Shown one piece after another: positions 2,154 to 34,715 of a DNA stretch of 34,715 nt. The stretch's first letter is position 1. Every line of letters begins with the position of its first letter. The stretch comes from an uncultured Clostridium sp. Lineage in GTDB: Bacteria; Bacillota; Clostridia; Lachnospirales; Lachnospiraceae. The translations under genes were made by a program, and so were the position numbers. The notes beneath the pieces were generated by a model, which worked only from the letters and a program-made list of their open reading frames with translations, was not told the origin of the DNA and did no database searches. The DNA is taken from positions 1 through 34,715 of the forward strand of contig CAMNRM010000053.1 of NCBI GenBank assembly GCA_946553025.1. The letters are read 5' to 3'.

Positions 2154-2366
2154 TTATTCTCCTGCAATCACATCCATATACCGCCGAATTTTATCAACCT
2201 TATTTACTTTGCGGTTTCCTATCCGGCATACTGCGTTTGCATCTTCCGCTATCTTCCTTGCCGTTGGCAGACCGACACCAAGCATGAAAGCAAGTTCCTT
2301 GTCAGATACTGCTATGCGCTTTTCTAAAACTGCAACATCAAAACTCTCTGCGCTTGTTTTTCTCAT
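2154..2366 (-). CDS. Small helix-turn-helix protein (DUF6462/excisionase-like)
   Basis: A 70-residue protein. The middle, with VSDKELAFMLGVGLPTARKI at about residues 20-39, reads as a helix-turn-helix, followed by a basic segment around GNRKVNKVDKIRRY. This matches small excisionase-like DNA-binding proteins (DUF6462 type) that commonly sit upstream of primase genes in Clostridia integrative elements. The start ATG at 2366 has AGGAG about 12 bases upstream. Its role could be excision or regulation of the primase operon; the sequence does not decide this. It is divergent from the XRE gene and shares the 140-base control region with it. Confidence 0.75.
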   Translation of the reverse strand: MRKTSAESFDVAVLEKRIAVSDKELAFMLGVGLPTARKIAEDANAVCRIGNRKVNKVDKIRRYMDVIAGE

Positions 2367-2418
2367 ACTTTGTCACACTCCTATAATTTTTTTGTGCTTA
2401 CATTGCATTTTGTCCTTA

Positions 2419-2442
2419 CTTGTGATATTATAATAACACAAG
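2419..2442. promoter_or_regulatory. Near-perfect 24-bp palindromic operator in the divergent promoter region
   Basis: The arms CTTGTG and CACAAG flank a perfect 10-bp palindrome TATTATAATA. The whole 24 bp is symmetric except for one A-A mismatch pair. TATAAT-like hexamers occur inside it on both strands (plus 2429-2434, minus 2432-2427), so a bound dimer would cover the -10 region of both divergent promoters. It is the natural candidate operator for the XRE regulator at 2506. The -35 boxes are not convincing on either strand. Confidence 0.6.
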
Positions 2443-2505
2443 TTACTACCCATTATAACCTACAGTATATTTCTAAATTTTTAAAAAGAAAGGATTTTTA
2501 TACCC

Positions 2506-3180
2506 ATGAAATTATATAGTTTTGCAAAAGGGTTTAAACGGGCAAGAAAAGAATCGGGATATACCCAGGAATCTTTTGTCAAAAATTTTTTAGATGAGCA
2601 ACAACATGAGCTTACTTCATTAAAAACTGTGCAAAATTGGGAACAAAATCTCACAATTCCTGAGTTTAGAACAATAGAAAAACTATGTGATTTTTTTAAC
2701 TGTGATATTGATTATTTATTTTACAGAATTGACCAAAAAACACATGATATTAAATATATACATGAATATACTGGATTATCAGAAAGAGCTATAGAACAAC
2801 TTCATGGACTTTATCATTCTGGTAGTCCTAATTTGAAAAATAATATTGTTTCGCTCAATCATCTAATCGAAAAAAATATTTTTTCTGTGTCATTATTAGG
2901 AGATATCACAAAATATATATTCAAATATTGTGATTATGAAAAGGGAAAAAAGCTTTATGAAGAGGAACAGCAAAAAGCGCCAAAAGTATCTAATGATAAC
3001 ATCTTAGAAGCAATCAAAATTATGGACGAATATAAACCACTTATTACTAGCAAAAAGTTGTCAGAACTTACTGAAAAAAAAGAAGTTGCGCTTTGGCGTA
3101 TGACAAACAGATTTTCTGATATTGTTACCCAAATTACTCAATCTTTATTTTTGGAATCTCAAAATAGAAAGGACACTTAG
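2506..3180 (+). CDS. XRE-family helix-turn-helix transcriptional regulator
   Basis: A 224-residue protein whose N-terminal 75 residues form a Cro/CI-type helix-turn-helix (ARKESGYTQESF at about 14-25, then LKTVQNWEQNLTIPEF, and CDFFNCDIDYLF). The remaining 150 residues are helical and charged, and I do not recognise a domain there. ATG at 2506 follows AAAGAAAGGATTTTT. Divergence from the HTH-primase operon across a palindrome suggests an element repressor that also controls its own gene. Codon use is much AT-richer than in the core genes, consistent with acquired DNA. A dedicated terminator follows at 3260. Confidence 0.85.
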   Translation: MKLYSFAKGFKRARKESGYTQESFVKNFLDEQQHELTSLKTVQNWEQNLTIPEFRTIEKLCDFFNCDIDYLFYRIDQKTHDIKYIHEYTGLSERAIEQLHGLYHSGSPNLKNNIVSLNHLIEKNIFSVSLLGDITKYIFKYCDYEKGKKLYEEEQQKAPKVSNDNILEAIKIMDEYKPLITSKKLSELTEKKEVALWRMTNRFSDIVTQITQSLFLESQNRKDT

Positions 3181-3259
3181 TTTCCTTAAGGCATTGAGCG
3201 CCCCTCTCCCTCTGTACCTTTTTCTGTACCTTTTCAAAGTACAAAGACAAACAACAACA

Positions 3260-3301
3260 AATCAAGGCTCCTGCTGAAATTCCCAGGAACCTTGATTTTT
3301 A
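3260..3301 (+). terminator. Rho-independent terminator after the XRE regulator
   Basis: The 14-bp arms AATCAAGGCTCCTG (3260-3273) and CAGGAACCTTGATT (3284-3297) pair with one mismatch around a 10-base loop, and a run of T follows. A-rich sequence precedes the hairpin, so it could also work on the minus strand. Confidence 0.75.
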
Positions 3302-3450
3302 GATATATATAGGCAATGTCAAACAAAGACAACTCCAACATCACACTAATTTTCATTGAGTGCTAGTAATTTTATAAAAATTTTATGGAGTGCTCCTTCT
3401 GCGTTACTGTTTACACATTCAAAGCAACCTTTCTGCACCCTTTTTTACCC

Positions 3451-3479
3451 TTTTTTTTATGGGTGATTTGTGTTATATT
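3451..3479 (+). promoter_or_regulatory. Candidate promoter for the antitoxin-toxin operon
   Basis: TATATT at 3474-3479 is preceded by TGT, making an extended -10. A T-only hexamer lies 17 bases upstream instead of a true -35. An ACCC/GGGT mini-inverted repeat (3447-3464) overlaps the spacer and could be an autoregulatory site. Confidence 0.35.
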
Positions 3480-3549
3480 AGAGGTAGAAAAAAAGCCAAG
3501 ATAAACATAATAAAAATAAATAGCATGGACAAGAAAGGAAGTATATACA

Positions 3550-26769: not shown

Positions 26770-26804
26770 CAAGAAAAAAGAGGCGGATGGCCTCTTTTTT
26801 CTTG
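26770..26804. terminator. Terminator after the activase gene (also serves the convergent AlbA_2 gene)
   Basis: A perfect 15-bp stem (26770-26784 with 26790-26804) and a 5-base loop, with A- and T-runs inside the arms, so it can act in both directions. It is part of a segment repeated at 28391. Confidence 0.85.
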
Positions 26805-26845
26805 GGCTTTGGGGGGATGATTATAATCGTAATCCATCAATGTAT
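26771..26845. repeat. Imperfect direct repeat, copy A, flanking the AlbA_2 gene
   Basis: Copy A shares AAAAAGAGGC, CCTCTTTTTTCTTG, ATGATTATAAT and CATCAAT, in the same order and near-equal spacing, with copy B at 28389-28467. In the distal part about 25 of 31 bases match. Copy A overlaps the stop codon of the AlbA_2 gene. Confidence 0.65.
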
Positions 26846-28187
26846 TTCCCAATATCCAAAACGCTTACCACCTTTTCGGACAATACGTCCGCTGTCCTTT
26901 AACCGACCCATAGCCCTTTGAACCGATGGAAGCGATGTCTGAAGTATCTCCGCCAGTTTCTTTTGACTTAATCCTGCATCCCGTTTTAATTCACCTACAA
27001 TCCTATTTTCCAAAACATCATCCAAAACATCATCCAAAACATCAGGCTGATGTTTTAGATTTTTGGAATCCGATATTTTAGCACGTTCAAGTGCAAAAAA
27101 CTTGACCGTAATATCGTTACCCAGCACCGTATATTCTGGCTCCGCTGTACCAAGCTCACGACATGACTCACAAATTTTCTGTATTCCCCTTCCCCATGCT
27201 TCGATATACCCTGCCCGATAAAACACATGCGCTATCGAAGGATTAAACGGTTCAGACTTATGAGGTTTCATTAATGTATCCACTGTCCAGTTTTTTGGAA
27301 GAATGCAATTATTGCTGATATACATAGCATCTTCTTCAATTCTGATCTGAATGGGAACACTTGCGGCATAATTATTATGTCCCAGGGCGTTATAAATGGC
27401 TTCCCTTACACCCTCACGAGGGAAAGGATAGGTTTCCACACGAACATCATGCTCATAGGTAATCTTTGCCTTCAGGTATTTTGTATATATCAAATCTATC
27501 ACTTTATCAGCAATATTAAAAAGTGAGCCTTCAACAGTATCTTGATACTGCAAATCAGAACCATCACCAAACTTTCCGATTTTAACATAACTCCCCGTGA
27601 TAATTCTTCCCGGCTTTCTATAAAACAACATCACGGCTGCCCGTTTTAATTTACCATTAATCAAGAGATCCAAATGATCCATCAATTCAGCGTTTGGAAT
27701 GTCCAGATCCTCCTTTGTCATTCTCTTTTTTCGCACAGCTTCCCGCTTAAATACCTCTATACTTTCCCGATCCAAATCCTCCACATCAATATTATCCACA
27801 GGAACTGCATCCCATAAAAACCCTGTCTTCTCCCTGATAAACTCCGTCAATGCAGCTCCCTGAAACTGCTGCTTAGTAGCACCACTCCTATAGTGATACT
27901 CGCCATGATAATTAACCGGATAACTGCTTGGTTCTACTTTAACTTCAATGTAATCCAGCCCGTCCTTTGTTCGCTTATTAACATCTGTAATGATACCCAA
28001 ACCAGATTGAATCTTATTGGGAATATCTTCCAAAAGTTTCTTAATATTTTTAACGCCAATGACATTTCCGGCATCATCGATACCGATATAGATCGTGCCT
28101 CCCTGAGCATTAGCAAAACCGCATACCCATTTCAGATATTCCGTCACGCCAAGATTCCTTATATTCGATATTCTGACTTTCTGCCAT
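26837..28187 (-). pseudogene. AlbA_2/Schlafen-type ATP-binding transcriptional regulator with N-terminal frameshift
   Basis: The long frame reads an AlbA_2 domain (EYLKWVCGFANAQGGTIYIGIDD), a GHKL-like ATPase region (REAIYNALGHNNY, GYIEAWGRGIQKI), then a winged helix at the C-terminus (LSQKKLAEILQTSLPSVQRA). Its apparent start at 28207 is false: those 22 codons cover the ribosome site. The proper start is ATG 28187 (GGAGG upstream), reading MAESQNIEYKESWRD, the expected family N-terminus. At 28141-28142 one extra C (G on the gene strand) shifts the frame; removing it joins WRD to EYLKW and gives 449 residues. So the gene carries a single-base insertion at codon 15-16, or a sequencing error. 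The family is common in defence islands and toxin-like regulators. Direct repeats flank it. Confidence 0.85.
27010..27044. repeat. 12-bp tandem repeat in the AlbA_2 gene
   Basis: The unit CCAAAACATCAT occurs twice exactly (27010-27033), plus a third copy differing in its last base. It encodes a DVLD-DVLD-DVLE linker between the ATPase region and the winged helix. In-frame slippage would change linker length. Confidence 0.85.
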
Positions 28188-28212
28188 ATAACCTCTACCT
28201 CCCGCATCAGTC

Positions 28213-28240
28213 CTTATAATCATGCCTCTCTATTGTCCAA
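28213..28240 (-). promoter_or_regulatory. Candidate promoter of the AlbA_2 gene
   Basis: On the minus strand TTGGAC (28240-28235), 16 bases, TATAAG (28218-28213). The start near 28206 gives a leader of about 20 bases that holds the ribosome site for ATG 28187, supporting that start over 28207. Confidence 0.5.
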
Positions 28241-28390
28241 AATGGCCTGCCCTATAGATTTTCCATACCTTATTTACAGACAATTTATTTTTTAATCATA
28301 TCATTTTTCCCTCTCAAACTCAAGAATTTCACAAATCTTTTATCGACGAAATCTATCTTTAATCGTTTCATTTTTGACACTTATAAAATA

Positions 28391-28416
28391 AAAAGAGGCA
28401 TGATACCTCTTTTTTC
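28391..28416. terminator. Orphan terminator-like hairpin in a divergent promoter region
   Basis: AAAAGAGG (28391-28398) pairs with CCTCTTTT (28406-28413) around a 7-base loop, with T following. No gene ends here: AlbA_2 reads away to the left and DUF4869 starts to the right. It is best explained as a relic copy of the activase terminator. Confidence 0.6.
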
Positions 28417-28445
28417 TTGTTCTTTTGCGATGAAATGATTATAAT
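28417..28445 (+). promoter_or_regulatory. Promoter of the DUF4869-ATPase pair
   Basis: TTGTTC (28417-28422), 17 bases, TATAAT (28440-28445); the start would be near 28452. Confidence 0.65.
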
Positions 28446-28524
28446 AGTAGCACATCAATATACTTGAAGCTTTATTTTTTCAAATTTCAGACACACTAAA
28501 AAATGCAGGAAAGGAACTTCGATT

Positions 28525-28962
28525 ATGCTGAATATCTTTTACGGAAAAATGCCGGAAGCCATTTTTAATACTGCCATATACTTTAAAAATGTCTATGAAG
28601 ACCATTGGATAACTGATCCCTTTTCCCGGGAAATGATTGCCGACGTTGACCAATCGACCGTTATCGGTGAAGCAGTGATTGACAGTCCCGTACTGGGCAA
28701 AATTTCCCCGCTCTCTCTGTCCGGCGGGGTAAAAACACTGATTCTGATAAAAAACGAGCCACAGACCATATTTAATGCCTCTACCTGCGGGGACAACTGC
28801 GCAAAATGGATATTAAAAATCGGAGAAATGCAGGATACCACGGTAAATCTCCGCCACCTGATGGACTTTGGGAGGGGAGAATTTACGATCCGTATCATCA
28901 ATACCGACCAGATTGTTCACAGTATGAAAGAATTAGTTCCCATTGCCGGGTTATATGTCTGA
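28525..28962 (+). CDS. DUF4869-type protein
   Basis: A 145-residue soluble protein with no signal peptide or membrane segment. The sequence style (FYGKMPEAIFNTAIYFKN, FNASTCGDNCAKWILKI, HLMDFGRGEFTIRI, MKELVPIAG) agrees with my recollection of DUF4869 proteins, which in Clostridia stand directly before a small P-loop ATPase, as here. The function is unknown; I infer a two-gene system, possibly defensive, from its position in the island. ATG 28525 follows GCAGGAAAGGAAC. The next gene starts 12 bases after the stop. Confidence 0.75.
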   Translation: MLNIFYGKMPEAIFNTAIYFKNVYEDHWITDPFSREMIADVDQSTVIGEAVIDSPVLGKISPLSLSGGVKTLILIKNEPQTIFNASTCGDNCAKWILKIGEMQDTTVNLRHLMDFGRGEFTIRIINTDQIVHSMKELVPIAGLYV

Positions 28963-28974
28963 TGGAGGGCGCAT

Positions 28975-29499
28975 ATGAAAGGGAATCACCGAATTATTAT
29001 CCAGAACAAACGCATCCGCTATGATTTTACCATCCGAAGGAACCTGACGGTTATCCAGGGCAACAGCGCTACAGGAAAGACCACATTAATTGCAATGATC
29101 CAGGAATATGACGAAAATGGTTCAGCCAGCGGCATACAATTAACCTCCGACAAAAAATGTACCACGCTTTCCGGGCAGCGGTGGGAAACAGAATTGTCGT
29201 CCATTAAGGACAGTATCATATTCATTGATGAAGGAAACAAATTTATTTTTGGCGATCGATTTGCTTCTCTTATTCAGCACACCGATAATTATTATGTCAT
29301 CGTCACCAGAGAAAGTATTCCCTCCCTGCCTTACAGCACCAAGGAAATCTATGAGATACGTAATTCAGGGAAATATGGGAGATTGAAACAGACGTATAAT
29401 GAATTTTTTCCTTTGTATCCTTCCGATCTTCCAACAAAAAAGGATGTACCAAAAATCATTATTACGGAAGATTCTAACATATCTCTGAGTAAACCTTGA
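28975..29499 (+). CDS. Small P-loop ATPase partner of DUF4869, probably C-terminally truncated
   Basis: A 174-residue ATP-binding protein with Walker A GNSATGKTTL near residue 29-38 and a Walker-B-like IIFIDEGN near 81-88, then YYVIVTRES (sensor-like). GGAGGG precedes ATG 28975. The sequence ends abruptly: KIIITEDSN is followed by ISLSKP and a stop. As I recall, homologues continue after EDSN with SGY/SGF and a second domain of about 100 or more residues, so I think the C-terminal domain has been lost, with the break near 29475. The stop codon lies in the CTTGAATAA repeats. Confidence 0.75.
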   Translation: MKGNHRIIIQNKRIRYDFTIRRNLTVIQGNSATGKTTLIAMIQEYDENGSASGIQLTSDKKCTTLSGQRWETELSSIKDSIIFIDEGNKFIFGDRFASLIQHTDNYYVIVTRESIPSLPYSTKEIYEIRNSGKYGRLKQTYNEFFPLYPSDLPTKKDVPKIIITEDSNISLSKP

Positions 29500-29545
29500 A
29501 TAATTCTTGAATAACCTTGAATAAATTTACTCAAGATTATTCAAG
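29495..29545. repeat. CTTGAATAA iterons with an inverted copy
   Basis: CTTGAATAA occurs at 29495-29503, 29506-29514 and 29516-29524, spaced 11 and 10 bases (one helical turn). An inverted copy lies at 29537-29545 within TCAAGATTATTCAAG (29531-29545), which pairs with 29495-29510 to form a long hairpin. It sits between the converging ATPase and winged-helix genes; it may be a protein-binding array, a transcription end or a recombination scar. Confidence 0.7.
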
Positions 29546-29548
29546 CGA

Positions 29549-29764
29549 TTATTTCAATATCCAATGAGAACGTTGTTGATTAGACGAATCCGTATCAATA
29601 ACATTATCTTTCTTCAATATTGCCAACAAATTACTTACTTTATGTTCTTTTTGAGCATCTGATAATGCATCCGGCAACTTATCCCATAGCAACCCTCGAA
29701 TATCTTTCTTTTTTGCTTTCCCATATTGCTTTAAATACTCAACAATCAAGTCTTTATTCTTCAA
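29549..29764 (-). CDS. Small winged-helix protein coupled to brxL
   Basis: A 71-residue basic protein. It reads as a winged helix: KDLIVEYLKQYGKAKKKDIR, LLWDKLPDALSDAQKEHKVS, NLLAILKKDNVIDT, then a short wing ending in HWILK. This is the kind of domain I recall as the C-terminal part of AlbA_2-type ATP-binding regulators, but here it stands alone. The start is TTG at 29764, overlapping the brxL stop (TTGA), so translation depends on brxL. It could be a small BREX regulator or a leftover fragment of a larger gene; the coupled start and intact frame favour a working gene. CTTGAATAA repeats lie 4 bases past its stop. Confidence 0.65.
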   Translation of the reverse strand: MKNKDLIVEYLKQYGKAKKKDIRGLLWDKLPDALSDAQKEHKVSNLLAILKKDNVIDTDSSNQQRSHWILK

Positions 29765-31893
29765 TTCGCCCCCAATGCCTTCATCACCGCCTCCTCCGCG
29801 CTTTTATACAGAATAAAATCAAACGCCGTAGAAAGGTCATCCGGCACGACCGCCAGTTCCGGCATGGAGATCGCCGGCATAAGGACTTTCTTTGCACCGC
29901 TGTCCAGGCAAACCTGCAGGGTATTCGCCAGTTCTTCCACCTTCATCAATGTACCGCTGATGCTCATCTCCCCCAAAACAGCCATGGAGCTTTGCAGGGG
30001 GCGTGCCAGGGCTATCGAACTCAGGGCAATCAATGTCGGCATCGCCAGCTTTCCCGTCATGCCGATTCCCTGCAAATCCTGATAATTAACGATATAATCC
30101 CTGGTTATCGTACTGATACTGCCACTGATCCGGTTTCCATTTGCCTTCAGAAAATGAAAGGCTGTGTTGGTCGCCTCCTTCGCCTCGCGGTCCGTGCCCA
30201 GACCCGTGCGCTCAAACTTGCCATTCCCCGGAAGCATCTGGCTTTCCAGGCGGAATACGCCGATCATCCCGCTTTTCCCATGGGCTACCGTGTAAACCTG
30301 ACCGGGATTGCACATGCCTTCGGGAATCAGCTTGCCGCCGCCCTGTTCCGGCACGGATACATAATGCTCTTCAAAAGTTTCATTATCGATGTAAGAAAAA
30401 TTCACATCATAAAATTCCATTCCCCCAAGCTTCTTAAGCTGTTCCTTCACGCGGCGGCGCATTTCCAGAGAAATCTGCAGCACCTCTTCCAGCTCTTCTT
30501 TTGTAAATTCCCCGTCCGGGTATAAGAGTTTCAGATAACCGTCAACCATCCTGCGCACAGCGATGGTATCCCTCTGGTTTAAATTCTTTCCCAGGCGAAA
30601 CGCGCTGTCTAGGGCGTCGCCGTACTGTTCCTTGCGCAGTTCACGGACAAATTCCGCCAGATAATCGCTGATAAACCCATAATCATTTGTAAAATGCTCC
30701 GGTCGGAATTTCGGAATCTCCCAGCCGGGAAGATAGGCATGGATGCGGTCAAGAAACGCCGTATCCGTTCCCATTTCCGGCGGAAAAGGGTCAAACAGGC
30801 TGCTTGTCTTTAGCAGAACATCCACACTCTGGTTGATATTGCCCACGAACACCATCGAAGCATTCGCTGCCTTCTCCTCCTTGCCCCGGGCAAAGGAACC
30901 GGACGCCATGTAATCCTTCATAATCTGGATTCCGTCCTTGTCCTTAAAGCGGATACCTGCCACCTCATCAAACGCCACACAGTCCCACATTCCCACCAGC
31001 CCCACAGTTTTTTTCCCCATATTGTAAAATAAATTCGCCACCGTCGTCTGTCCGCCGGAAACTAAGATACTGTTCGGCGAAATCTCTTTATACAGATGGG
31101 ATTTTCCGGTGCTTCTGGGGCCAAGTTCGCAGAGATTAAAATTATTTTCCGCCAATGGAATCATACGGGTCAGCAGAAGCCATTTTTCCCGGTAAGTCAG
31201 TTCATCCGGTTCCATGCCAATCGACCGCATCAGCACATCCAGCCATTCATCCTTGGTAAATGCTTTTCGCCCCTGCTTTAACTCAGCGATATCCATGTGC
31301 GGCATCTGGATAGGGGTGAGTTTGCGGATGGTCACGGGCGATACTTCCTTTGGTTTTTTCTGCCGGAAAGCCCATTCTCCTTTCCTGTCCGCAGGCCCGA
31401 TATTCTCCGCCGTGCCAAAACCGCTGTCTTCTTCTGCTTCATATTCTAACTGGATAATGCACCAGATTCCGCCGCAGAGCAGCCGGTCAAACTTCTCCGG
31501 GTACTCGTCAGCGATGGGAATCCCCCCCAGACCAAGATTGGAAAAATCGGCAAAAAAGCAGTTCTTTCTGATATCCAAATGCACTGTCACCATATCGATA
31601 ATCGTATGACTGCCCTTCCTGCGAAGCTGGGATAAAATCTTCTGCGCCTCGTCCGGGCGAACGAAATTATCTGCCAGAATCCGCTTTACATTTTGAATGC
31701 CCTTTTCAATCACCTCTTCATCATCCGAACTGCAGTACTGCCCTAACAGAAACTCAAGAACGTAAACCGGGACATTGGCACCCTCCTTGATTTTCTTTGT
31801 CAGATCCTTTCTTACAATTCTTCCGTCAAAATTCTCCCTGAGTTTTCGCTTTATCCCTTCGCGGACGCTCTCCTCCGCTGCCGATACCTCCAT
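29761..31893 (-). CDS. brxL: BREX type 1 protein BrxL (Lon-like AAA+ protein)
   Basis: A 710-residue AAA+ protein of the BREX phage-defence system. The N-terminal region (1-200) is followed by the ATPase with Walker A GPRSTGKSH (K264) and Walker B VAFDEVAG (D309, E310), FVGNINQS as sensor, and a C-terminal Lon-like domain (VLGEMSISGTLMKVEEL). Aligning that block with E. coli Lon, without gaps, puts Lys and Ala at the positions of the catalytic Ser and Lys, so protease activity is not supported. BrxL is understood as a DNA-binding ring needed for phage restriction in type 1 systems. AAGGAGGGG precedes ATG 31893. It lies 43 bases after pglZ, the canonical order. Confidence 0.93.
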   Translation of the reverse strand: MEVSAAEESVREGIKRKLRENFDGRIVRKDLTKKIKEGANVPVYVLEFLLGQYCSSDDEEVIEKGIQNVKRILADNFVRPDEAQKILSQLRRKGSHTIIDMVTVHLDIRKNCFFADFSNLGLGGIPIADEYPEKFDRLLCGGIWCIIQLEYEAEEDSGFGTAENIGPADRKGEWAFRQKKPKEVSPVTIRKLTPIQMPHMDIAELKQGRKAFTKDEWLDVLMRSIGMEPDELTYREKWLLLTRMIPLAENNFNLCELGPRSTGKSHLYKEISPNSILVSGGQTTVANLFYNMGKKTVGLVGMWDCVAFDEVAGIRFKDKDGIQIMKDYMASGSFARGKEEKAANASMVFVGNINQSVDVLLKTSSLFDPFPPEMGTDTAFLDRIHAYLPGWEIPKFRPEHFTNDYGFISDYLAEFVRELRKEQYGDALDSAFRLGKNLNQRDTIAVRRMVDGYLKLLYPDGEFTKEELEEVLQISLEMRRRVKEQLKKLGGMEFYDVNFSYIDNETFEEHYVSVPEQGGGKLIPEGMCNPGQVYTVAHGKSGMIGVFRLESQMLPGNGKFERTGLGTDREAKEATNTAFHFLKANGNRISGSISTITRDYIVNYQDLQGIGMTGKLAMPTLIALSSIALARPLQSSMAVLGEMSISGTLMKVEELANTLQVCLDSGAKKVLMPAISMPELAVVPDDLSTAFDFILYKSAEEAVMKALGAN

Positions 31894-31936
31894 GCCATCC
31901 CCTCCTTATCGCGTATGTATTCAGCCTAAGAAATAA

Positions 31937-34606
31937 TCAGCCAAAGAAATTAAATTCATCCACAGCAAAAGCAATATCAATCTGAAATTCTTCCTTCACT
32001 GGCATCTGCAGGCCGGATTCATCTGCAATCACCAGATAGTAGACTTTCCGGTTACTGTACTTTTGCGAGCGGAGATTAAAACTGCAGCGAAACGTTCTTT
32101 CCTGTCCGTTTTCGCTGGTTTTATCGGCAATGATTTTACAGGTATCACTGACGGGACTGCCGTTCTCATCCACAAAATACAAAAGATAATTTGCCGCTTC
32201 ACGATTATCGCCCACCGCCTCTTTCTGATAGAAATGCAGTGAGAAAATCATATTGCTGATCTTGCGGTTTGCGGACAATAAGCTTACTTCCACCGGCTTC
32301 GTGTCGATCTTATCCCGGTTGCGCCGATAAGCCATGGTCGTCGAGCGCAGATAATGATAGGTAATCACCGGAACAACCATTTCCTGCAGACTGGTGCCGC
32401 CGTGGACGTAATTTAACCCGCCGCCGTGCATCTTAATGCGGACATTTTCCCTTGGCGCAGCCGATGTGTACTCCGCTGTGCCTTCCATGAATTTTACCGG
32501 CATCAAAAAATCCGTCTGCGCATCCTTTTCCATAATGGCAAAACGCCTTCCGTACTCAACCATACGGCTGGAAAAACCGGGCTTATCCACCTTATCCACC
32601 TCTGCCAGAGGACTGTAGGTATAAAGGAAGCCGTGATCCGCCGTAATGATAATCTTCGTGCCGCCAAACTCATTGACAATCATGCGAACCATGTTTTTGA
32701 TTTCGTCAATAGCTTCATCACAGGCAGGAAAAACAGCACGGTCGGAAATATGGCTTGCCTCATCCACCTTATTATGATAAATATAGACAACCTCCATGCC
32801 CTTGACCAAAGCAGTACGTTCGGCATATTTCCTGCTGATGAAATCCTCATAGTTTAAGGCAATGCTTTTCGGATTGGCAGCCTTTAAACACTTATCCCTG
32901 TAACCTGCATCCGTAGACTGCCCGTCCGCCAGAATATCCAGAGCGCCGCTGGCATTTCGGACAGCCGTAAGCGCCTTGTGCGGCAGCAGCGCCGCCATGC
33001 CGAACTTGGTGATTGTAGGGAAGATCGCCTGACAGCTTCCCATTTCCACCTTGCTCTGCGTTTCCCGGCGAAGCTGCTCAGCCAGAGAAACCGCCGCTTC
33101 ATAGCGGAATGCATCGGATATAATGACAAACTTGCGCCGGTCTTCCCGCTTTACCTTGTCCTCATAGAAATTCACCTGCTGCGGCACTTCCAGGATATGA
33201 CCAAACCGCGCCAGATGATCCTCGCTTGCCGCCGACCAGTTCTGCCCTAACTGACCGATAAACCAATGCGTGTACAAGCCCTCCGCTGTTTCTGTGACAT
33301 GCTTAAATAAATCATCCAGCAGAGGATGGGAAAGTTTCAGACAGCGCTGGAAGCAAAGATGAAATTTCCGGTAATAGGTGTCCATCTTGTAATACTCTGC
33401 GGTATACTCCTTCCATAGTTTTGCCGGGTCTGCGGTGTGAAAGCCTTCAGCGTGTTCTAAGAAAAACGTCTGCATATTGGCAATCTGGCGGATACCCTCA
33501 TAATAACCGGAAACATTATCATACCAGACCATTGTCCGGCGCTTTTCCACAATGGCATGAATCCTGTCGGCATGGATAATCTGGTCACGGATTTCGGTCA
33601 TCAATTCGATTAATATACACTCGTCAATGCAGGGGAAATATTCGGTATCCAATAAATCATCCGCCGATAACTTTCCAAAACGCTTCGGCAGACGCGCCTC
33701 TTCCTCCACATAGCGGGCCACGTCATAAAGAAAATGTTTATCCTCACTGTGCAGCCAATCCGAAACAAAATCATAGCAGTAGGACTGGTGAGGAACAGAA
33801 ATAAACTTCTCCAGCCCCGCCAGATGGTCGGGATGCATGGTTCTTGATGCGGCAGTCAGCATAAGATGCACAGCAAGACGGCATAAGGGGGATGGATTAT
33901 CGCTATTGCTCTCGTTTTCATCATAAAAACAGCCCGAAGCCTGCGCAACCATTGCCCAGAAAGCTTTATCTGCACCGTAATGGACGAAATTCTGGTAGAT
34001 GGGATTTGCATCTGTATCCAGACCGGCGCAGAGGGTTGTGCGGATAATGCTGCCCGACTGCATGTCCCGGCTCTCGCAGAGCACCGCCATCACCGCCAGG
34101 TGCATCTGTGCGGCGGTGGAAATTGTATGGTTGGTGTGATTGGTGTGGTTTGTATGGTTTGTGTGGTTTAAATCTGCAATTTTGGCGCGGTGTTTCTTTT
34201 TGTCAAAAAACTTCCGGTAATACTTCACCTGCTTGCGGATAATCGGCGTAGCAGGAAGATTCATCTCATCCATCCAGATAGAATTTAAGTCGGCGCGGAA
34301 AGATTCGCTGTATAATTCGATATTAAGCAGCCAGTTGTCATCATCTTTTTGGTAAGAAAGAGGATTGTAGATTAGATAATTGCTGGCGGTACCCTCCTCG
34401 CAAAGTTGTTTTTTAACGGCAAATGTGTTGCTTCCGGTTAGTCGGAGAAGCTTTGCATTTGTCAATTGAAGTTCATCCAGCTTGTCCTCAAACTCCCGCT
34501 CCTCATCGTACCAGAAGATGATACGACGTTTGTAGAAGTCGGGGAGAGGGGTGGTAAAACGGCGGGTTAAATCGTGAATAATCGTGTTGATATCCATATC
34601 AGGCAT
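31937..34606 (-). CDS. pglZ: BREX type 1 protein PglZ (type A, alkaline-phosphatase-like)
   Basis: An 889-residue protein from ATG 34606, chosen for AAAGGAG 8 bases upstream; an in-frame TTG at 34690 is unlikely. The N-terminus (RRIIFWYDEEREFEDKL) is typical of PglZ. The phosphatase-superfamily core shows VIISDAFRYEAA (D498) and IITADHGFLYTY (D657, H658), with YIYHNKVDEA between them. BREX PglZ is required for defence and for DNA methylation complexes. Between residues 146 and 161 is an unusual run of five Asn-His-Thr repeats. The other core genes (brxA, brxB, brxC, pglX) are expected to the right, outside the window. Confidence 0.93.
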   Translation of the reverse strand: MPDMDINTIIHDLTRRFTTPLPDFYKRRIIFWYDEEREFEDKLDELQLTNAKLLRLTGSNTFAVKKQLCEEGTASNYLIYNPLSYQKDDDNWLLNIELYSESFRADLNSIWMDEMNLPATPIIRKQVKYYRKFFDKKKHRAKIADLNHTNHTNHTNHTNHTISTAAQMHLAVMAVLCESRDMQSGSIIRTTLCAGLDTDANPIYQNFVHYGADKAFWAMVAQASGCFYDENESNSDNPSPLCRLAVHLMLTAASRTMHPDHLAGLEKFISVPHQSYCYDFVSDWLHSEDKHFLYDVARYVEEEARLPKRFGKLSADDLLDTEYFPCIDECILIELMTEIRDQIIHADRIHAIVEKRRTMVWYDNVSGYYEGIRQIANMQTFFLEHAEGFHTADPAKLWKEYTAEYYKMDTYYRKFHLCFQRCLKLSHPLLDDLFKHVTETAEGLYTHWFIGQLGQNWSAASEDHLARFGHILEVPQQVNFYEDKVKREDRRKFVIISDAFRYEAAVSLAEQLRRETQSKVEMGSCQAIFPTITKFGMAALLPHKALTAVRNASGALDILADGQSTDAGYRDKCLKAANPKSIALNYEDFISRKYAERTALVKGMEVVYIYHNKVDEASHISDRAVFPACDEAIDEIKNMVRMIVNEFGGTKIIITADHGFLYTYSPLAEVDKVDKPGFSSRMVEYGRRFAIMEKDAQTDFLMPVKFMEGTAEYTSAAPRENVRIKMHGGGLNYVHGGTSLQEMVVPVITYHYLRSTTMAYRRNRDKIDTKPVEVSLLSANRKISNMIFSLHFYQKEAVGDNREAANYLLYFVDENGSPVSDTCKIIADKTSENGQERTFRCSFNLRSQKYSNRKVYYLVIADESGLQMPVKEEFQIDIAFAVDEFNFFG
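34124..34168. repeat. Five 9-bp repeats encoding Asn-His-Thr in pglZ
   Basis: Five in-frame 9-base units (minus strand, AAC CAC ACA type) differ only at third codon positions. They extend the linker near residue 150 of PglZ without breaking the frame. Confidence 0.9.
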
Positions 34607-34661
34607 GATATGATCTCCTTTTAGGTAATTTTGACTATCATTTTTTCTATCAATTATCAAA

Positions 34662-34677
34662 TTAACTTGTGAGTTAA
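34662..34677. promoter_or_regulatory. Inverted repeat upstream of pglZ
   Basis: TTAACT and AGTTAA flank the 4-base centre TGTG/CACA, 56 bases upstream of the pglZ start. On the minus strand a TTGAAA (34688-34683) and a GATAAT (34660-34655) bracket it with a spacer of 22 bases, too long for a normal promoter, so the site may instead be an operator. AAAGGGCTATTCTTTT near 34690-34705 could be a weak terminator of the preceding gene. Confidence 0.4.
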
Positions 34678-34715
34678 AAGTTTTCAACAAAAAGAATAGC
34701 CCTTTTGTATGGATT

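Follow-up and report, generated by a model that had tools for sequence, protein, structure and literature searches.

Type 1 BREX protects cells from phage and methylates a non-palindromic motif of 6 bp. In PglX of Salmonella, two long spacer helices (residues 850–960) lie between the recognition domain (residues 662–849) and the C-terminal region, and Ocr binds PglX and blocks BREX (PMC11341690). The same report describes BREX operons with an embedded PARIS ariAB pair or BrxU between pglX and pglZ. The BREX operon of genome G000, the subject of this study, shares with these a second defence or effector gene inside the operon, but here an extra gene lies within pglX, at a fixed codon, and the methyltransferase would become two chains. 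Compared with type 1 BREX in general, the operon has the same six core genes, in canonical order and on one strand once its two contigs are placed side by side. It differs in that pglX is present as two genes with a third between them, and in that a DUF2130 gene, RCC1 repeats and an insertion sequence (IS) lie between pglX and pglZ.

The gene of PrrC stands between whole subunit genes, and PrrC has its own ATPase domain. The extra gene in G000 is a HEPN gene between the halves of one gene, and the Pfam scan of its product shows HEPN only. What the two have in common is that a gene for an RNase, putative in G000, sits inside a modification operon. PrrC is an anticodon nuclease embedded in the type IC restriction operon EcoprrI, sequestered in the enzyme and released on T4 infection (PMC3874165); sequestration, reported there, is proposed here. 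The M and S subunits of type I restriction enzymes likewise have the methyltransferase and the helical spacer and recognition parts on separate, helix-joined chains (PMC3874165), whereas in G000 the recognition domain stays on the methyltransferase chain and the cut divides the spacer pair. Backup effectors of BREX with HEPN, Schlafen and OLD-TOPRIM domains are the subject of PMC12839542, in which the linkage of HEPN and Schlafen proteins to BREX is already reported. No description of a split pglX was found in the literature searched, which covered text without figures, supplements or subscription papers. The main text of PMC12839542 gave no word match for a split or fragmented pglX; an example drawn in its figures or supplements is possible.

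Structure of the BREX Operon

The window, that is, the whole stretch of DNA analysed, is the entire contig C53 (34,715 bp) of the G000 assembly, which comprises 4.87 Mb in 126 contigs. A sequence-only reading of the window had described the end of a BREX type 1 operon with intact-looking pglZ and brxL, and both genes were indeed open, full-length frames with the expected domain matches. The pglZ gene (31937–34606, minus strand; putative ATG start, scanned from 34630) matched the BREX-1 PglZ type A model TIGR02687 with 553.9 bits over positions 10–832 of 844, and also matched PF08665. The brxL gene (29761–31893, minus strand; 710 aa) showed BrxL_N, BrxL_ATPase and Lon_C matches. A 9-bp tandem repeat inside pglZ (34123–34169; 5.2 copies, 81% match) encodes (NHT)n, and in-frame length variation is possible there.

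The remaining BREX genes had been expected to the right of pglZ. This failed for the window itself, which ends at 34715, and held for a second contig, C22. The last bases of the window (34666–34715) are the end of a multi-copy IS at which the assembly breaks. Its terminal repeat was found 30 times in the genome, in every case no more than about 55 bases from the end of a contig. An IS of about 15 copies (30 ends) coincides with many contig breaks of the assembly. The 30 IS flanks were compared, and 11 pairs had a common 7-bp duplication and one pair an 8-bp duplication. The 7-bp sequence TTAATTT was common to the start of C22 and the end of C53 only, which carry opposite IS ends. Because of this target duplication and the gene order in three same-genus relatives, C22 was placed next to C53. 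The order on C22 was RCC1-repeat gene, DUF2130 gene, pglX C half, HEPN gene, pglX N half, brxC, brxB and brxA, followed by a resolvase gene, a short frame and a fructose-bisphosphatase gene. All six core genes, brxA, brxB, brxC, pglX, pglZ and brxL, were therefore present across the two contigs.

Between the pglX C half and pglZ, the RCC1-repeat gene (C22, also listed as locus L084, 56–1894) and the DUF2130 gene (2232–3542) had no match at E 1e-3 in any of the other 80 BREX loci. The space that separates brxC from the pglX N half (C22, 7511–7646) is made up of degenerate tandem repeats of 15 bp. No match to PARIS (AriA/AriB; OLD-family ABC ATPase and TOPRIM) was found among ten C22 genes scanned with Pfam.

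The borders of the island were examined in same-genus relatives. Left of the satellite genes of the window lies a 1424-aa plus-strand gene of the 2-hydroxyacyl-CoA dehydratase activator type, whose product has CoA-enzyme-activase domains. The fructose-bisphosphatase gene faces this activator gene in 3 of 10 same-genus relatives, at spacings of about 0.13, 0.18 and 0.7 kb; the 1.5 kb examined in each of the other seven did not contain it. By this adjacency, BREX and its worn satellites make up a single type 1 BREX island of about 22 kb, plus the IS, inserted between the activator-type and fructose-bisphosphatase genes, and the window ends in the left part of this island.

Division of pglX

G000 has no single-chain PglX of about 1200 aa. 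The N half (814 aa) matched the PglX model with 940.8 bits, and the C half (313 aa) matched positions 906–1209 of the 1210 positions of the model, with a 187-aa gene between them. By alignment to Salmonella PglX, the N half contains the helical bundle, the methyltransferase, the recognition domain and the first spacer helix. The inserted gene starts 9 nt after the stop of the N half and runs past the point where the C half begins, so that it contains the ribosome-binding-site-like sequence of the C half. The inserted gene was assigned to HEPN by PF18736 (30.2 bits against a cut-off of 26.6). It carries the R-x4-H motif RNALAH; an R-x4-6-H motif is the hallmark of the HEPN RNase superfamily.

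The position of the cut was determined by alignment to Salmonella PglX (8C45). Residue 808 of the N half aligned with residue 880 and residue 21 of the C half with residue 910. The cut therefore maps between residues of about 881 and 909, within the paired spacer helices. It thus divides the helix pair near its turn, plausibly a place where two chains could re-join.

Occurrence of Divided pglX

Eight split pglX loci were found. Both halves were present in seven: G000, L018, G332, G743, a Collinsella plasmid, G1102 and MT835838. In the eighth, MT837207, only the C half was visible, behind an AlbA_2 gene. All seven N halves stop equally far past the position of the SW.F motif (SSEF in L018), with the ending ..xL(V/I)-stop. 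All eight C halves can start at a common [MV][SAG]xL[IL]xxK[FY]; in L018 and MT835838, where an earlier in-frame start codon is present, this start was chosen by us. The distance from the N stop to the start of the inserted gene was 9 nt in five of the seven loci. All six core BREX genes were found in G332, G1102 and Collinsella, and no brxL match was found in MT835838. With a codon-exact cut in seven loci and differing genes in the gap, the split of pglX is no local accident.

The frequency of the split was investigated in several sets. Among the loci of the 80 nearest BrxL relatives, both PglX parts were found in 59; 55 of these had one frame, one was split (L018, Gemmiger An87) and three were broken or incomplete in other ways. 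The class search gave matches in 34 of 391 genomes, two of them split, and yielded G332. The search of the family of G332 gave matches in 7 of 200 genomes (2 split) and added G743, and the phylum search gave matches in 41 of 378 genomes (3 split) and added G1102. The four sets overlap; in the last three, candidates were picked by frame length and some of them opened, leaving out matches that were weak or cut by a contig end (e.g., G671, G889 and G917). Plasmid searches (best 40 of 266 records; best 60 of 268) yielded the Collinsella aerofaciens plasmid. In a phage collection 8 records matched, of which three fecal scaffolds were opened; one was fused, and the other two were MT835838 and MT837207. 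No relative of the PglX C half was found in viral_contigs. Split loci were rare in the sets searched.

Four further candidates were rejected. In G859/L060 and in G1128 the break was inside or near the recognition domain, away from the linker, and L052 and L079 were left out of the count because their pglX is broken or incomplete without being split at that point.

What fills the gap differed from locus to locus. A HEPN-like gene was present at three of them: G000, G1102 and Collinsella. The gene of G1102 matched PF18736 at 65 bits and was accompanied by a 172-aa partner gene. The Collinsella protein reached no Pfam cut-off (PF18735, E 0.14); it carries the motif RNGFAH and matched the G000 protein pairwise at E 2e-6, with 34% identity over 64 aa. 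In MT835838 the gap held two genes and an AlbA_2 gene. The first of the two matched PDC-S31, a PADLOC candidate, at E 3e-7, and the match of the second was weak (E 0.02). The gap of G743 held a RES-like gene, with a match below the cut-off and an apparent frame break. No recognised domain was found in the Pfam scan for the gap proteins of G332 (270 aa) and L018 (141 aa). The start of the former resembles a membrane segment by eye, and the latter has weak similarity to parts of two plasmid HNH endonucleases. A structure prediction of the 141-aa protein was discarded as unusable (mean pLDDT 38.5). The gap genes thus look effector-like in part, not in every case.

A search of plasmids with the G000 HEPN protein gave no match at E 1e-3. 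A relative of it (34%) in G088 (L127/L128) lies downstream of a cluster that resembles type I restriction M/S genes by eye, and is followed by a 1046-aa frame. In G743 (L241, 7238–8771), the stretch from the pglX C half to pglZ carries an AAA_15/AAA_21-type ATPase gene and one of 172 aa, a pair that is PARIS-like by position.

Phylogenetic Analysis

The FastTree tree of C halves contained 116 rows (8 split and 108 others). Six duplicates, six rows shorter than 230 aa and seven ids repeating split loci had been dropped, and the row of MT835838 was used without its first residue. Three changes between fused and split were counted, and five split rows grouped together, G000 and Collinsella among them. 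IQ-TREE was run on 60 rows, which comprised all 8 split rows and those 52 of the other 108 that stood nearest to them. It required 5 changes, 3 of them forced by well-supported branches, and 3 of 500 shuffles were as low as 5. G000 was placed away from its FastTree group, and Collinsella, on a long branch, stood loosely (92/78) beside G1102, G332 and G743. The FastTree tree of N halves, with 58 rows of which 6 were split, gave 5 changes; MT835838, whose N half is cut, was dropped from it.

Split and fused PglX thus intermix in the trees, and at least three changes between the two states are needed. These changes may be gains or losses, so that the number is given as changes and not as fissions. 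Repeated, separate fission of pglX is the simplest reading and a likely one; three changes could also be one gain and two losses, by re-fusion.

Flank of the Island

The sequence-only reading had seen a partly decayed defence island at the BREX end, in which every satellite gene was altered. The decay was borne out: the ATPase gene is truncated, the AlbA_2 gene has a broken frame and the third satellite is only the relic of a gene. The island is absent from 3 of 10 same-genus relatives. The same reading had proposed that BREX, a DUF4869–ATPase pair, AlbA_2 and a 71-residue protein form a recurrent, undescribed accessory set.

The DUF4869 gene (28525–28962, plus strand; 145 aa) is intact and matched PF16163 with 206 bits over profile positions 1–128 of 128. 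The P-loop ATPase gene paired with it (28975–29499, plus strand) encodes 174 aa. Its match to full-length relatives ends at residue 168 (28975–29478), and about 150 C-terminal residues are absent. In a DUF4869 search of 299 same-family genomes, 56 had matches and the 30 best loci were taken for comparison. The ATPase gene adjoined DUF4869 in 27 of the 30, with an open frame of 317–343 aa in 20 of them. The pair in the window is thus incomplete, with DUF4869 intact and the ATPase cut at residue 168 instead of the expected length of about 320 aa, as the earlier description of an ATPase gene missing its C-terminal part had it. In G000 itself 13 DUF4869 matches were found, many of them weak or partial, and four of these, including the window copy, had the ATPase gene beside them; DUF4869 is a multi-copy family. 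DUF4869 had no mention in the literature searched.

A second DUF4869–ATPase copy in G000 (contig C14; L129, 1830–3833) is cut at a TEDSN stretch like the window copy. The gene after it looks Fic-like by eye. In a third DUF4869-linked ATPase gene (L097), an in-frame stop follows directly after TEDSNSGY, and the C-terminal similarity carries on in frame. A shared truncation site was rejected, because of the gene that follows the C14 copy and because the tails of the window and C14 copies differ, and no mechanism was found. The missing C-terminal part was also not found on C22 (1–19000), and its location at the far end of the island was rejected.

The 71-aa frame (29549–29764, minus strand) starts with a TTG that overlaps the brxL stop. 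The interval 29480–29757 (minus strand) matched, for 279 nt and with 84% of the DNA identical, the 3′ end of an AlbA_2-type frame of 571 aa in a same-family genome (L180/L194); at the protein level, the match to the last part of that frame covered 67 residues at 90% identity. The supposed coupled winged-helix gene is thus the relic of the 3′ end of a gene of about 570 aa of the AlbA_2/RNA-binding type, and its role as a BREX regulator was rejected on the same 279-nt match. The relic begins 2 nt past the end of the ATPase homology and ends 3 nt before the brxL stop codon, so nothing but a foreign scrap lies between ATPase and brxL. Of the four relatives closest to the relic, two are full-length (about 571 aa), and none had a BREX gene in the 16–19 kb covered.

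The AlbA_2 (Schlafen) gene (26837–28207, minus strand) had matches above the cut-off to PF04326, PF13749 and PF13412 (AlbA_2, HATPase_c_4 and HTH). Its 456-aa ORF starts out of frame. The usual AlbA_2 start (MAESQNIEYKES..., compare VEFKEN in relatives) is in one frame and the remainder of the domain in another, and no single open frame includes the N-terminal (V/I)E(F/Y)KE stretch. With the conserved start and the domain body divided in this way, the frame changes within the first 25 or so codons, and an intact gene, as the 456-aa ORF would suggest, was rejected. The gene is flanked by two diverged direct repeats, a left copy (26775–26847, with a hairpin at 26770–26804) and a right copy (28390–28465). 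Identity between them was 78% for 26775–26810 and 28390–28425, 81% for 26817–26847 and 28435–28465, and 75–81% overall. Compared with the genome, the right copy matched at these two places only (E up to 0.01). A frameshifted AlbA_2 gene between direct repeats was thereby confirmed.

Recurrence was investigated in the listed loci of the 80 nearest BrxL relatives, of which 64 had at least 5 kb upstream and 56 at least 5 kb downstream of brxL. Among the matches listed, DUF4869, the ATPase and the 71-aa protein were each found in 0 of 80 loci. AlbA_2 relatives were found in 19 of 80; 16 of these were upstream of brxL, 13 of them between the pglX and pglZ matches. Fifty other DUF4869 loci, 4.3 kb long on average and with one place represented twice, contained no BREX gene. 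Recurrence therefore held for AlbA_2 and failed for the other three. The AlbA_2 association is also not undescribed: Schlafen proteins with a C-terminal kinase-like domain and a wHTH adjoin BREX/BR loci in at least 1017 taxa in a 2026 survey (PMC12839542). DUF4869 and its ATPase are a pair separate from BREX, and the satellites left of brxL are worn or cut pieces and no BREX accessory set.

Discussion

The best explanation of the split, held tentatively and quite possibly correct, is a two-chain PglX with built-in backup effectors that are kept silent by the PglX/BREX complex. The two PglX chains would re-join through the antiparallel spacer-helix pair divided by the cut and would form a working modification and recognition unit. 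The gap gene, in G000 a HEPN-type RNase, would be made in step with PglX and silenced by the complex. If a phage blocked PglX, as it might do by means of a DNA mimic like Ocr, the effector would be set free. The released effector would kill or arrest the cell and so stop the infection, as PrrC does from EcoprrI. The explanation draws on the codon-exact cut in seven loci, the common start of the C halves, the 9-nt spacing in five loci, the HEPN-like genes in three gaps, the position of the cut within the paired spacer helices, the intermixing of split and fused PglX in the trees and the complete core gene sets of G332, G1102 and Collinsella. The IS interrupts the operon about 60 bp upstream of pglZ in G000, so this copy may be poorly expressed, which was counted against this explanation. 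Also counted against it were the rarity of split loci, the possibility of one gain and two losses, the choice of C-half start in L018 and MT835838, the gap proteins of L018 and G332 without a recognised domain, the weak and apparently broken RES-like gene of G743 and the missing brxL match in MT835838.

In its widest form, which is rather unlikely, the explanation would describe a distinct form of BREX. PglX would consist of two chains, and the turn of the spacer helices would be a slot for interchangeable suicide effectors (HEPN, Schlafen with candidate defence genes, RES-like). The PglX assembly would be the lock, anti-BREX proteins or the loss of either half would release the effector, and the slot would lie at the same codon in separate PglX lineages.

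A two-chain PglX could also work without any control over its passenger. The linker would then be a tolerant landing site, at which recombination that swaps recognition domains ends in the spacer helices and picks up defence genes free of PglX control. This is possible, although doubtful. The linker is variable, with 31–69 residues between two motifs in the 70 loci that have both in one frame, and the variety of the gap genes would be expected of such a site. HEPN relatives also occur away from BREX (G088; a Treponema plasmid), and the gaps between pglX and pglZ likewise carry diverse genes (PMC11341690). A tolerant site accounts less well for an N end that is codon-exact in 7 of 7 loci, for the common start peptide of the C halves and for the 9-nt spacing in 5 of 7, which look like selected coupling.

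Decay is improbable as an explanation. By this account pglX was broken by insertions, and the operon of G000 is dying like its flank, which is full of relics. The IS upstream of pglZ and the broken or incomplete pglX genes of L052, L060/G859, L079 and G1128 would agree with it. However, the halves and the inserted genes are open in six of the seven loci, the N half of MT835838 being cut by the record end, and of the inserted frames that of G743 looks broken. In addition, the C half begins with a start of its own, and the same arrangement is seen in both Bacillota and Actinomycetota, in sequences distant from one another.

The proposed accessory set is very improbable: its members adjoin in the window and AlbA_2 does recur beside BREX, but three of the four members are refuted in the sets searched, by the 0 of 80 BREX loci, by the DUF4869 loci that have no BREX gene and by the relic nature of the 71-aa frame.

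Split operons can be misread as broken, since the C half can pass as a "hypothetical protein", as in the Collinsella record. The exact and repeated cut marks a site at which a PglX made of two chains may keep its function, a point of interest for the assembly of the recognition and C-terminal parts. Operons with pglX cut at one codon and an RNase-like gene in between would make it possible to test directly if a suicide effector is under guard by the BREX methyltransferase.
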